54,854 bases of DNA from Streptomyces roseochromogenus subsp. oscitans DS 12.976. GTDB taxonomy: Bacteria; Actinomycetota; Actinomycetes; Streptomycetales; Streptomycetaceae. The notes under the pieces were generated by a model. That model saw nothing but the letters and a program-made list of their open reading frames with translations. It was not told the origin of the DNA and ran no database searches. Shown in pieces: positions 30,355 through 33,800 of the stretch. The DNA is taken from positions 5,870,839-5,925,692 of the forward strand of contig NZ_CM002285.1 in assembly GCF_000497445.1 (NCBI RefSeq). The letters run 5' to 3'. The translations under genes and the position numbers were made by a program. How positions within the stretch are numbered: position 1 is the first letter of the stretch; the number at the start of each line of letters is the position of its first letter.

Positions 30355-31671
30355 TCACCGGACCTCGATGAACGCCGCCGCGTCCCGCTCCGGCCGCGGT
30401 CTCGGTTCCTCCGCCGGATGCCCGACCGCCACCGCGCCCATCGGCTCCCACTCCGCGGGCAGCGCCAGCGCCTCGCGCACCACGTCCCGGCAGAACATCG
30501 TGGACGACACCCACGCCGAGCCCAGCCGCTCCCCGGCCAGCGCGACCAGCAGGTTCTGCACCCCGGCGCCCATCGCGACGACGAACATCTCCCGCTCGGC
30601 GCCGTCCCGCCGTGCGTCCCCGTAGTGGTGCGAGCCGTCCATGACGAGGCACGGCACGACCAGATACGGCGCGTTGCGCAGGACATCGCCCCGGCGCACC
30701 CGCTTCGCGATGGACTCCTCGCTCTTGCCGTCCCGGCGCAGATCGGCGATCCAGGCGTCCCGCATCGCGTCCAGCAGCCGGGTCCGCGACTCCTCCGTCT
30801 CCAGCAGCACGAACCGCCACGGCGTGGTGTGGTGCGGGGCCGGTGCGGTCACCGCCGCCGCCACGGCGCGCCGTACCGCTCCGGGGTCCACCGGCTGGTC
30901 GGTGAAGGCCCGGACCGTACGCCGCTGGGTCACCGCCTCCCGGACCGCCTCGGACGTGCCGAGCCGGAACATGTCGGCTCGCGCGTCGCGCACCAGCGCC
31001 CGCGCACCCTCGCCGTCCTCGAAGCCCAGGACGTGGGGCAGCCCGCGTACGACGGCGACCGGCCGCCCGGTCGCCTTGCCCTTGACCAGGTCGCCGGCGG
31101 CGGCCAGTTCGTCGGCCGTGGCCACGATCGTCGCGTGGAGCGGATTGCCGTACGCGTCCGTGCCCCCGCGCAGATCGTCCAGCACGCGCACCCCGGCGGC
31201 GCCGATCGCCACGTCCGTGAGCCCCGAGCGCCAGGGCCGCCCGAAGGTGTCGGTGACGATCACGCCCACGTCGACACCGAGGGCGGCGCGCAGGCCGTCG
31301 CGGATCGCGCGCGCGGACGCGTCCGGGTCCGCAGGCAGCAACAGCACGGTGCCGGCGGGGGTGTTGGAGGCGTCGACCCCGGCGGCGGCCATGACCAGGC
31401 CCTGCCGGTTCTCCACGATGCGCAGCGTGCCACGCCGGGCGACGACCCGGACGGTCTCGGCGTCGATGGCTGCCTCCCGGTCGTCGGCCTGCATGATCCG
31501 GCCCTCGGCCTTGGAGACGATCTTGGAGGTGACGAGCAGCACGTCCCCGTCGGCCAGGTCCGGCTCGGCGGCGGCGATCAGCTTGGCGAGGTCGTCACCC
31601 GGCTGCACCTCGGGAATGCCCGGCAGGGCCCGGACCGTGTACGCCGTGTGCTCGGAGCGTTCCTCGCTCAC
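30355..31671 (-). CDS. fbiB: F420 gamma-glutamyl ligase / dehydro-F420 reductase (FbiB)
   Basis: The 438-residue two-domain enzyme makes coenzyme F420. The N-terminal CofE domain (~10-250; [52 protein letters not shown]) adds glutamates to F420-0. The C-terminal FMN nitroreductase-like domain (~265-430; [57 protein letters not shown]) reduces dehydro-F420-0. This fused arrangement is typical of actinobacteria. GTG 31671 overlaps the fbiA stop as GTGA, so the two are translationally coupled. F420 serves oxidoreductases of primary and antibiotic metabolism. Confidence 0.95.
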
Positions 31672-32627
31672 GCTCCCCGCACCTCCTCGGCCAGCGCCAG
31701 CGCCTCCCGCGCCATCTGCGCGCTCGCGTCGACGTCGGTCATCATCAGCGGTACGGCCCGGCACCGGATCCCGTCCGCCTCGACCCGCTCGACCACGGCC
31801 GCGTCCACGGTGTCGACCAGCCAGCCGTCCAGCAGACCGGAGCCGTAGTGCTCGGCGACCGCGGCGGCCGTGGACTCCACGCCGACCGCGGCGAGCACCT
31901 TGTCGGCCATCCCGCGCACAGGCGCGTCCCCGACGATGGGGGACAGGCCGATCACGGGTACGCCCGCGTCCGCGATCGCCTCCCGGATACCGGGGACGGC
32001 GAGGATGGTGCCGATGGACACGACCGGGTTGGACGGCGGGAAGAGGATGACGTCCGCCGCGGCGATGGCCTCCAGCACGCCGGGCGCCGGCTTGGCCTGC
32101 TCGGCGCCGACCGGCACGATCGCCTCCGCCGGGACCGAGGCGCGCAGCCGTACCCAGTACTCCTGGAAGTGGACCGCTTTGCGCTCGCCCTCGACCTCGA
32201 CGGCGACGTGGGTCTCCACGCGGTCGTCGGTCATCGGGATCAGCTTCACGCCCGGCTTCCAGCGGTCGCACAGCGCCTCGGTGACGGCGCTGAGCGGATA
32301 GCCCGCGCCGAGCATCTGTGTGCGCACGATGTGCGTGGCGAAGTCCCGGTCGCCCAGGCCGAACCAGTCGGGCCCGACCCCGTAGGCCGCCAGTTCCTCC
32401 TTGAGGTGGAAGGTCTCGTCGGCTCGCCCCCAGCCCTGCTCTTCATCGATGCCGCCACCCAGCGTGTACATCACCGTGTCGAGGTCCGGGCAGACCTTCA
32501 GCCCGAAGAGGTGGATGTCGTCGCCGGTGTTGCCGATCACCGTGACGTCCGCGTCCGGCACGGCCCGCTTCAGACCGCGCAGAAAACGGGCACCACCGAT
32601 GCCGCCTGCCAGAACCACAATGCGCAT
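31668..32627 (-). CDS. fbiA: 2-phospho-L-lactate/phosphoenolpyruvate transferase (FbiA/CofD)
   Basis: The 319-residue enzyme transfers a phospho-enolpyruvyl (or phospholactyl) group from the guanosine-activated donor to Fo, giving (dehydro-)F420-0. CofD signatures are the N-terminal [42 protein letters not shown] and the phosphate-binding [17 protein letters not shown] 32627 is chosen because the protein then starts on the conserved strand; ten codons upstream lie in poor sequence. It follows the cysteine dioxygenase by 34 bp without an obvious terminator, so read-through from that promoter is possible. No strong ribosome site is seen. Confidence 0.95.
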
Positions 32628-32661: not shown

Positions 32662-33156
32662 TCAGGCAGTCACCGGACGAGCTTCGCAGTGGGGGGAAGC
32701 GTGCATCGGCATCTCGGTCAGGCCCGGGTGGTACACGTGCAGGCTGACCGCCGGCTCCAGCGTGTCGTTGACCACCTCGTGGACGTACCCCGGCGCGAAC
32801 ACCCTCTGGGCGCCCGCCGTCAACGCGCGCGTGGCGCGCTCGGTGCGCTCGGTGAGTGTGCCCTCCAGGAGGGTGAGGACACCGGAGGAGCGGCCGTGGC
32901 CGTGCAGCCCGCTGCCCTGCCCCGGCACCCAGGACAGCAGCCACACCTCGTAGCCGGGGCCGGTGCGCAGCCGGTGGTACCAGCGGGTGGTCGCGTCGTA
33001 GCGGACGAGGTGGGCCCACTGGGAGCGGTCGGCGGCGATCGAGCGGGCGAGGCCCACGAACTCGGCAACGGTGGCCGGGTGCTCGCGCGGCGGCTGGAGC
33101 AGGTGCGGGACTTCGAGGATGTCGCCGGCGATCTGGAGGTCGTTGTCGCTGTTCAT
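32662..33156 (-). CDS. Cysteine dioxygenase (cupin)
   Basis: The 164-residue cupin-fold iron enzyme oxidises L-cysteine to cysteine sulfinate. The three-His metal site is visible: H85 and H87 in GLHGHGRSSGV, and H126 in YVHEVVN. The spacing and flanking WLLSWVPGQGS are typical of bacterial cysteine dioxygenase. It is the first full gene after a 32-codon poly-Cys leader ORF and hairpin on the same strand, which suggests expression linked to the supply of charged Cys-tRNA. It is followed closely by fbiA and fbiB. A mercaptopropionate dioxygenase specificity is possible in this family, but the cysteine-rich leader favours cysteine. Confidence 0.88.
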   Translation of the reverse strand: MNSDNDLQIAGDILEVPHLLQPPREHPATVAEFVGLARSIAADRSQWAHLVRYDATTRWYHRLRTGPGYEVWLLSWVPGQGSGLHGHGRSSGVLTLLEGTLTERTERATRALTAGAQRVFAPGYVHEVVNDTLEPAVSLHVYHPGLTEMPMHASPHCEARPVTA

Positions 33157-33236
33157 CGGGTGCGTGGTTCCTCGGCGGAAGAGCGGGGGAGTGGGGCCCG
33201 GAAGGGAGGGTGCTGCGAGGTTCTGCGAAGGAAGCG

Positions 33237-33262
33237 GCCGAGTCGGTTCGTCAGGACTCGGC
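33237..33262 (-). terminator. Candidate attenuator hairpin ahead of cysteine dioxygenase
   Basis: On the minus strand GCCGAGTC (33262-33255) and GACTCGGC (33244-33237) form a perfect 8-bp stem with a 10-nt loop, 23 nt after the leader stop and 80 nt before the dioxygenase ATG. A pyrimidine-rich stretch (CGCTTCCTTCG) follows. Three self-complementary CAGCTG elements lie just upstream at 33311-33316, 33290-33295 and 33265-33270. Two of them lie inside the Cys codons, so alternative pairings that depend on ribosome position are possible. Confidence 0.5.
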
Positions 33263-33285
33263 GGCAGCTGGAGCGAGAGTCAGGC

Positions 33286-33384
33286 TCAACAGCTGGAACA
33301 GCGACAACAACAGCTGCAGCGGGACCGGGCAGCACCATGGGACCCGGCGGTGCGGGTCGAGGTGAGTGCCAAGTTCGCGAGCAT
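33286..33384 (-). CDS. Poly-cysteine leader peptide (32 aa), probably leaderless
   Basis: ATG 33384 opens 32 codons ending TGA 33286. The peptide begins MLANLALTSTRTAG and its last ten residues are CSCCCRCSSC, six Cys. Five of the six Cys codons are TGT, which is rare in this GC-rich genome where TGC dominates. No ribosome site precedes the ATG, but a promoter ends 7 nt before it, so the mRNA probably begins at the ATG. Poly-Cys leaderless short ORFs are known in mycobacteria as cysteine-responsive attenuators. The peptide itself is unlikely to have a function; its translation would sense Cys-tRNA. It lies 129 nt ahead of the cysteine dioxygenase start. Confidence 0.8.
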   Translation of the reverse strand: MLANLALTSTRTAGSHGAARSRCSCCCRCSSC

Positions 33385-33391
33385 GCCCACA

Positions 33392-33420
33392 AGGACACCG
33401 GCTCACACCTGAGCTGTCAA
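33392..33420 (-). promoter_or_regulatory. Promoter of the leader/cysteine dioxygenase transcript
   Basis: On the minus strand a perfect -35 TTGACA (33420-33415) and -10-like TGTCCT (33397-33392) are exactly 17 bp apart. Transcription would begin about 7 nt further, on the leader ATG at 33384. Confidence 0.65.
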
Positions 33421-33698
33421 CTCGGCGCCCGATATGTGGGACACGATTCACCTCTTCCGGTTCATCGCACAGGCGAAAGGTTTGTTCATCCGGACCCCGG
33501 GACAGCTGGCGCACATCCGGGCGCTCAGGCCTCGTGCAACGCGATCGAACGCGGGGACGTCCTTCTTCGTACAGAGGTCTGTACGGGTCCGTCCGGCCCG
33601 GGGTCTCGCCTGCGCGTTGAGGTTTAGGCCGATTTGAACACTTTCCGCACGGCCTTGGTTCCGCAGAGTGAATAACGGACCCAATAGCAGATCTCGGC
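33421..33698. other. Divergent region between the cysteine leader and whiB
   Basis: About 280 bp. Apart from one 16-bp palindrome it holds no recognised feature. Short open frames on both strands lack ribosome sites and coding character. Confidence 0.5.
33569..33584. promoter_or_regulatory. GTACAGAGGTCTGTAC palindrome upstream of whiB
   Basis: A 16-bp inverted repeat with perfect 7-bp arms and a GG centre lies about 220 bp before whiB, within the divergent region shared with the cysteine leader. It looks like a dimeric regulator site; none is identified. Confidence 0.45.
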
Positions 33699-33728
33699 TT
33701 GACTCGCCCGGAGCAGCACACTTGTAAT
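33699..33728 (+). promoter_or_regulatory. Likely whiB promoter
   Basis: TTGACT (33699-33704) and TGTAAT (33723-33728) are 18 bp apart, a near-consensus principal-sigma promoter about 70 bp before the whiB start. whiB of S. coelicolor is known to have more than one promoter, so this may be only one of them. Confidence 0.55.
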
Positions 33729-33800
33729 TTCACTCGTGTCGTTCAGCCGAAATCGGTAACGGCAACGCACGGGGACGCGAAAGACAGACGAGGGGCGCAC

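Follow-up and report, generated by a model that had tools for sequence, protein, structure and literature searches.

The window analysed here, a stretch of 54,854 nucleotides from Streptomyces roseochromogenus subsp. oscitans DS 12.976, carries on its minus strand a gene of the cysteine dioxygenase (CDO) family that is preceded by a short upstream open reading frame (uORF) ending in a run of cysteine codons. The features of this locus, in window coordinates, are the following.

31668..32627, minus strand: cofD, 2-phospho-L-lactate transferase (PF01933, 209 bits)
32662..33156, minus strand: cysteine dioxygenase family gene, CDO_I, 164 aa (PF05995, 66.4 bits)
33157..33285, minus strand: C-rich, G-poor leader from the uORF stop to the CDO start, a possible Rho entry region
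33166..33174, minus strand: Shine-Dalgarno region of CDO, CGAGGAACC, from a 27-locus alignment
33237..33262, minus strand: hairpin H3 (GCCGAGTC...GACTCGGC), group 1 only, no U-tract
33266..33294, minus strand: hairpin H2 (AGCUG-UU-GAGC ... GCUC-CAGCU), spanning the uORF stop, from alignments and predicted fold
33286..33318, minus strand: Cys-codon tail, TGC AGC TGT TGT TGT CGC TGT TCC AGC TGT TGA
33286..33384, minus strand: poly-Cys uORF, probably leaderless, 32 codons, MLANLALTSTRTAGSHGAARSRCSCCCRCSSC, stop TGA
33341..33358, minus strand: hairpin H1 (GACCCG...CGGGTC), inside the uORF, from alignments and predicted window fold
33392..33397, minus strand: candidate -10, TGTCCT, 7 nt before the uORF ATG, proposed from constant spacing
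33415..33420, minus strand: -35-like TTGACA, 30 nt before the uORF ATG
33445..33485, minus strand: conserved block ACAAACCTTTC ... AACCGGATGAGGTGAA upstream of the -35, from the 27-locus alignment

Gene order in the window is phosphomannomutase, glycosyltransferase, whiB, CDO, cofD, cofE, nucleotidyl transferase, with whiB divergent upstream of CDO and cofE (F420 ligase) next after cofD. Lying 34 nt 3' of CDO, cofD is possibly part of the same operon. Cysteine dioxygenases of the PDB match the window CDO at about 40 bits, and a CDO protein match was present in all 199 Streptomyces genomes searched, a few weak matches among them being possible paralogues. Upstream of the uORF, the distance from TTGACA to ATG is 30 or 31 nt in all 129 uORF-bearing loci of the survey described below, and because this spacing is constant the uORF transcript is probably leaderless, starting at or beside the ATG. 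A consensus scan of the window gave no sigma-70 match at TTGACA/TGTCCT, the -10 being poor. The block further upstream is strongly conserved among the 27 aligned loci and might serve as an operator or as another site of control.

The uORF itself extends from an ATG at 33384 to a TGA at 33288-33286, its C-terminal ten residues (CSCCCRCSSC) include six cysteines, and its stop lies 129 nt before the dioxygenase ATG (33156); coordinates and counts of this 32-codon ORF, first pointed out in a sequence-only reading of the same DNA, proved correct on checking. It alone among the short ORFs of the window (up to 60 aa; three nested starts) has at least six Cys per ten residues, and when the intergenic region 33157-33798 was shuffled 2000 times with dinucleotides preserved, a comparable poly-Cys ORF never appeared; together with conservation at 129 of 131 and 80 of 80 loci (below), this excludes a chance ORF. 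Every one of the 129 surveyed uORFs has three to seven Cys codons in a run next to the stop, which is TGA throughout, and the final codon is a Cys codon in 125 and TGT in 123. Summed over these uORFs, TGT (532) far outnumbers TGC (152), giving 78% TGT—a bias opposite to that of four coding sequences in the window, where the ratio of TGT to TGC is 1:12.

We found the same arrangement—TTGACA, 30-31 nt, ATG, and a short ORF whose last 14 residues include at least three Cys—at 129 of the 131 Streptomyces loci surveyed, each from a distinct genome. This sample comprised 30 automatically taken and 60 chosen places from 199 genomes (the weakest places lying outside the list), 26 new loci (with L112 dropped as coming from the same genome as L041), and 16 loci picked because they diverge; L133-L136, four loci from other families, do not enter the count. 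All 80 named loci, which were the 80 best matches and came from Streptomyces throughout, repeat the layout at a spacing of 29-32 nt, and 19 of them duplicate surveyed sequences; the 190 unique leaders that result (129 + 80 - 19 duplicates) divide into group 1 (n = 141) and group 2 (n = 49). All 116 loci of the first survey, in which one genome was counted twice, have at least four Cys among the last 12 residues. The uORFs form two main sequence groups, exemplified by MLANLALTSTRTAGSHGAARARCSCCCCSSC and MPATAALSATHSRGFRSAVQARCCCCCPSC, with MSAPAAATRTPIRGFLCAAQVRCCCCSC as a subtype of group 2; the Cys end is common to all, and the number of Cys differs between loci by whole codons. Streptomyces alignments and surveys thus bear out the pattern suggested as a check in the sequence-only reading, in that ATG, stop, and Cys run are kept amid variable sequence. 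Two loci (L126 and L132) keep TTGACA and the CDO gene while the uORF, the hairpins, and a large part of the leader are gone, and these can be viewed as natural deletions of the control region.

To assess the reading frame, we set the ATG by promoter spacing alone, leaving the ORF itself unused, and took GCTGTTGA as the tail motif. The motif was in phase with the ATG, with zero intervening stops, in 119 of 119 surveyed loci having both elements (of the 131, two lacked the ATG and ten an exact GCTGTTGA), and likewise in 77 of 77 named loci (of the 80, two lacked the 30-31 spacing and one lacked GCTGTTGA). This in-frame Cys tail holds over ATG-to-stop distances of 84-114 nt, and the lengths from uORF stop to gene occupy all three phases (71/68/51 among 190 leaders). 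The N-terminal part behaves differently—pN/pS over codons 2-17 of group 1, calculated after dropping pairs with more than 14 differences, was 1.57 when read in frame with the uORF, as against 0.85 and 0.56 for the two alternative frames, and thus no purifying selection on the N-terminal peptide was seen in this group; third codon positions of the uORF were at least as conserved as the other positions. Because the N-terminal part has no coding signature, the case for coding rests on the start, frame, stop, and Cys codons. What is preserved, judging from these comparisons of sequence, is the start, the frame, the Cys codons, the stop, and the RNA structure, and not the N-terminal peptide.

The predicted fold of the window leader contains all three hairpins, with modest overall stability (z -1.62). 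For base pairing across loci, we built alignment A1 from 63 of the 141 group-1 leaders (all GGCTG rows, chosen as varying, plus L001 and every third remaining leader) and alignment A2 from 41 of the 49 group-2 leaders (L119, L121, L122, L123, and L131 being omitted for odd length, and also L085, L130, and L259). In A1, 97.7% of cells pair, as opposed to at most 48.9% with the partners slid; the corresponding values in A2 are 89.9% and at most 49.7%. A free hairpin search was uninformative for H1 (190 of 190 real leaders vs a shuffled mean of 144 of 190), and its case therefore rests on the two alignments, in which 99.2% of H1 cells are paired in group 1 (63 rows, one with a double change) and 92.3% in group 2 (41 rows, three covarying pairs). 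Covariation in H1 comes mainly from group 2, while H2 covaries in both groups. Among the 190 unique leaders, helix A of H2 is perfect in 164 (against 48.3 on average and at most 61 after shuffling), and 128 combine it with at least three pairs of helix B (shuffled mean 1.7, maximum 5). Where AGCTG has become GGCTG (21 rows shown), the partner is C in 19 and a G-U pair is formed in the other two; the A1 tally of 21 double changes at one pair is enriched by the choice of rows. The inner helix of H2 reaches at least three pairs in 125 of 141 group-1 leaders and in 3 of 49 group-2 leaders, making H2 weaker in group 2. Of the 141 group-1 leaders, 54 have a hairpin resembling H3 (15.2 on average after shuffling), as do 5 of the 49 group-2 leaders (3.8 after shuffling, not above chance), and the T content 3' of H3 averages 2.7 in 8 nt.

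RNA models recovered the leader within the genus. Model R1, run on 41 genomes, gave 24 matches at E <= 1.1e-5, all in Streptomyces and one per genome; 22 lie directly before CDO and one (G008) before a CDO start at a contig end, and for the match in G012 the place of CDO was not among the matches listed, hence 23 of 24 before CDO. Model R2, run on 246 genomes of the class, gave 20 matches at E <= 3.6e-15, all 20 before CDO. Weak matches in G010, G350, and G373 fall within long open frames, and we treated them as noise; the one in G350 is the best outside the genus. At one further locus (G216:C1:5166519-5167022) the CDO match comes in two pieces, which suggests an insertion or frameshift, and R2 still finds the leader element before it. 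In other families, a Cys-rich ORF (at least 3 Cys in 12 residues) lay within about 500 nt before CDO in 11 of 66 loci, compared with 13 of 66 under the laxer test of such an ORF at any position on the reverse strand, indicating no enrichment of Cys-rich leaders at CDO. The source of these 66 loci was the set of 116 non-Streptomyces genomes in which CDO_I was matched—60 chosen and 6 of 8 automatic, L160 and L164 being omitted as too near a contig end. One locus from another family of the same taxonomic order (L133, genome G199) has a CDO relative (51% identical) and a Cys-rich leader of another type, MYQRADRLHHVKLRRVASALCCCLCCRPSL, whose TTGACA-to-ATG layout resembles the Streptomyces one.

Polycysteine leaderless uORFs that act in cysteine-dependent attenuation have reportedly been found in mycobacteria by Canestrari in 2020. 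As far as these mycobacterial leaders and the Ms5788A family are described in the material available, they are likewise leaderless short ORFs with contiguous Cys codons, in actinobacteria and upstream of genes; unlike the Ms5788A family, the window uORF precedes a dioxygenase rather than an assimilation gene, and its leader has H1 and H2. The window uORF gave no match at E <= 1 to the model of that family (NF042933, cut-off 45 bits) and none to NF042934 (cut-off 27 bits), for which a whole-genome search also gave none in the window; three typed peptides of the groups matched neither. NF042934 likewise describes Cys-containing leader peptides in Streptomyces (cis_reg_atten), but its members in this genome share an HxDLxR-type motif that the window uORF lacks. 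Rfam gave zero matches in the window at the gathering score. Seliverstov 2005 listed candidate cys leaders of cys/cbs operons in Mycobacterium, P. acnes, and B. longum which, as here, have Cys runs near the stop and no conserved terminator, with Rho suggested, weakly, for the mycobacterial ones; in the available text of that paper (PMC1262725) the word dioxygenase is absent and the cysteine section has no Streptomyces case. The uORFC-8-2 motif before cysS in Rhodobacterales likewise combines stems and a uORF bearing tandem Cys codons but differs, as described in the accessible part of PMC8632094, in having two conserved Cys codons, an intrinsic terminator, and an alphaproteobacterial distribution. 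Eight leader peptides listed for S. lividans are likewise mostly leaderless amino-acid leaders in Streptomyces, yet none is described as cysteine-dependent or as preceding CDO in the text available, and the metL peptide among that paper's leaders, with three Cys, is interpreted as a methionine leader (PMC8079986). Among the matches listed in open-licence literature on cysteine dioxygenase and leader peptides, no report of a CDO leader family was found. Cysteine leaders are known as a kind, and the Streptomyces CDO leader family is absent from Rfam and NCBIfam; the description of the ORF as previously undescribed therefore holds for this family in the literature matches listed, Rfam, and NCBIfam, and does not extend to Streptomyces Cys leaders at large, which are modelled as NF042934.

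Between the uORF stop and the gene, the leader has more C than G in 129 of 129 loci, and its C/G ratio is 2.06 (189 leaders) as against 1.03 in 66 whiB leaders, although C-richness alone does not prove Rho action. No intrinsic terminator with a U-tract was found before CDO in the window, which, together with H3 exceeding chance in group 1 only, speaks against a classical transcription attenuator with an intrinsic terminator. We then folded 120 of 129 leaders with a ribosome-sized block, nine being dropped for want of a recognisable Shine-Dalgarno site. A block on the stop abolishes H2, which is no independent evidence because those very bases are blocked; a block at the first Cys codon leaves H2 whole in group 1 and partly kept in group 2. 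Comparing ribosomes stalled on the first Cys codon with ribosomes placed on the stop, we obtained a mean difference in Shine-Dalgarno accessibility of 0.001 in group 1 (17 up, 15 down, n = 81) and -0.002 in group 2 (9 up, 8 down, n = 39). Sequestration of this site as a general output was judged unlikely, folding having given no systematic signal across these leaders.

Published transcriptomes bear on the direction of control. In S. coelicolor, 0.15 mM H2O2 raised 28 genes, as far as the available text of PMC4991794 reports, including SCO3035 (6.54-fold) and also cysN, cysD, cysC, cysH, cysI, SCO4164, SCO2910, metN, and metI, and in a mutant lacking HbpS-SenS-SenR no gene exceeded the up-regulation threshold under H2O2. 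SCO3035 is named hypothetical there; we take it as the putative CDO orthologue because the gene order parallels that of the window, sco3028 being manB, sco3034 whiB, and sco3039 encoding GDP-mannose pyrophosphorylase activity according to the sources available in part. In S. shaoguanensis, two CDO genes, either of which may be the orthologue, were near silent to 48 h and by 96 h had risen 21.65- and 6.36-fold. The sulfate-assimilation genes of this strain were down at 24-48 h and variably upregulated at 96 h, with cysM unchanged (PMC12763843, available portion). So far as these sources go, both data sets suggest that CDO moves with cysteine supply and not opposite to it, the first by way of the putative orthologue, though H2O2 treatment is not equivalent to cysteine starvation.

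The reading we favour, at a probability of roughly 0.58, is a ribosome-read cysteine attenuator with output at the level of mRNA, in which CDO rises as Cys-tRNA falls. A ribosome would load without a Shine-Dalgarno site at the uORF ATG, where the spacing places the start of the transcript, and would then meet three to seven Cys codons, mostly TGT, near the UGA. With Cys-tRNA short, it would pause at the first Cys codons and H2 could fold across the stop ahead of it; with Cys-tRNA ample, it would reach the UGA and H2 could not fold, a competition suggested by the geometry. H1 may pause RNA polymerase and so synchronise it with the ribosome. Once the ribosome has finished and gone, the C-rich leader would let Rho stop transcription; as long as the ribosome is stalled, in contrast, the start of that leader would be folded up in H2 (in group 1 also in H3) and polymerase might pass. 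The consequence would be a rise of CDO as Cys-tRNA drops, together with the cysteine-supply genes. Ribosome-gated, probably Rho-dependent attenuation is favoured because the leader is C-rich and G-poor and no intrinsic terminator was found; because H2 is weaker and H3 absent in group 2, the proposed output would not be uniform. A cysteine-degrading enzyme induced by starvation is physiologically odd, and this counts against the favoured sign.

The same sensor could work with the opposite sign, which we consider unlikely and yet the most serious competitor. Ample Cys-tRNA would then bring the ribosome to the stop, where by blocking H2 it would switch CDO on, either keeping polymerase going or freeing the CDO start, and starvation would uncouple the two machines and allow Rho or H2 to shut the gene. 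The physiology is intuitive for an enzyme that degrades cysteine, and the leader geometry permits it. Folding of the window leader points the same way, since predicted accessibility of the Shine-Dalgarno region rises from 0.17 when free to 0.44 with a ribosome at the stop, but the effect is not general over the leaders. To our knowledge, the only poly-Cys leaders studied experimentally derepress on cysteine limitation, which argues against this sign. In feather medium, cdo1 and cdo2 of Streptomyces sp. SCUT-3 were up 50.2- and 8.3-fold (PMC7181669, available text); feather being a cysteine-rich substrate, this is in line with induction by plentiful cysteine, yet it can be read either way. Against it stand the two partly available data sets above, in which CDO moves with cysteine-supply or sulfate-assimilation genes. 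The earlier suggestion that this uORF senses Cys-tRNA is upheld in its anatomy—a genus-wide, in-frame, Cys-terminated leader of CDO with the parts of a sensor—while its reverse logic, by which CDO should go up when cysteine is plentiful, finds no support in the two transcriptomes, where putative CDO orthologues rise with most of the cysteine-supply genes.

Translational attenuation of the mycobacterial type, in which a stalled ribosome frees an otherwise paired Shine-Dalgarno site, seems improbable to us. Citing papers, available in part, attribute this mechanism to leaders of M. smegmatis, and the window site is predicted to be largely paired when free (0.17 unpaired). Yet its accessibility shows no systematic difference between stall and stop across the 120 of 129 leaders folded, folding of the window leader has the site freed by a ribosome on the stop codon and not by a stalled one, and mRNA levels change under H2O2 (PMC4991794, as above).

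Still less probable is that there is no sensor at all and that a conserved RNA or DNA element, protein-binding or structural, carries the Cys codons incidentally. Third positions at least as conserved as the others, a pN/pS highest in the uORF frame, and the covariation that marks H1 and H2 as real RNA structures would all fit such an element; survival of ATG, frame, and TGA through changes of length, Cys counts that change by whole codons, peptide types with different N-termini that have only the Cys end in common, and the rarity of chance tails this dense (0 of 2000 shuffles) do not. The tnaC leader undergoes tryptophan-induced arrest ahead of a catabolic operon, and nascent-peptide arrest of this kind at the stop, induced by free cysteine, could be imagined from the catabolic type of target, the C-rich region past the stop, and the near-constant TGT-TGA end (123 of 129), but is highly improbable given that the sequence before the Cys tail differs between groups and shows no purifying selection in group 1 (pN/pS 1.57). 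A conserved bioactive or TnaC-type arrest peptide was rejected as a candidate, no nascent-peptide sequence being conserved between the groups.

The genome encodes a second CDO, 34% identical to that of the window, and it too has a Cys leader. In 22 of 22 Streptomyces loci (L137-L158), in which leaders were found by motif (HxDLxR-like with Cys), the second CDO has a WRRVHMDLVRYAGCVCRPSC-type leader ahead of it; the copy from the present genome, MTDTFVRLWRRVHMDLVRYAGCVCRPSC (L146 1315-1398), on which alone among second-CDO leaders the profile was run, matches NF042934 at 37.1 bits (cut-off 27). Because only the second-CDO leader fits NF042934, the leaders of the two paralogues are unrelated by model. 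Other NF042934 matches in the genome (L308-L311, L314-L317) precede genes of PALP (cysM-type), nitrite/sulfite reductase, and rhodanese domains, as well as luciferase-like monooxygenase, flavin reductase, and transport (solute-binding, permease) domains; a match below the cut-off precedes a TauD-family gene, and the leader of the rhodanese gene matches both NF042934 and Ms5788A (45.3 bits, cut-off 45). We take these domains to be of sulfur-supply and sulfonate-use types, presumably the kinds of genes that rise with SCO3035. The genes led by NF042934 look as if they form a sulfur-supply regulon, spread over the genome and marked by cysteine leaders. We put forward only tentatively, with the odds against it, the wider idea that both CDO paralogues are switched on by unrelated Cys leaders at low Cys-tRNA, along with cysteine biosynthesis and sulfur scavenging. 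If it is true, the CDOs would be part of a programme for cysteine limitation or oxidative stress, releasing for example sulfite from other thiols, and the view of bacterial CDO as an overflow valve for cysteine would be wrong for Streptomyces.

The known cysteine attenuators that we found, in sources available in part, precede genes that make, import, or load cysteine. Here, throughout a genus of industrial importance, a conserved and unmodelled leader with its own RNA architecture precedes a gene whose annotated role is to destroy cysteine, and what little expression evidence exists points in the "wrong" direction. The outcome would be either an inverted attenuator or a changed view of the role of the dioxygenase, with a bearing on sulfite production in the degradation of keratin (feather), where Streptomyces CDO genes are strongly induced.
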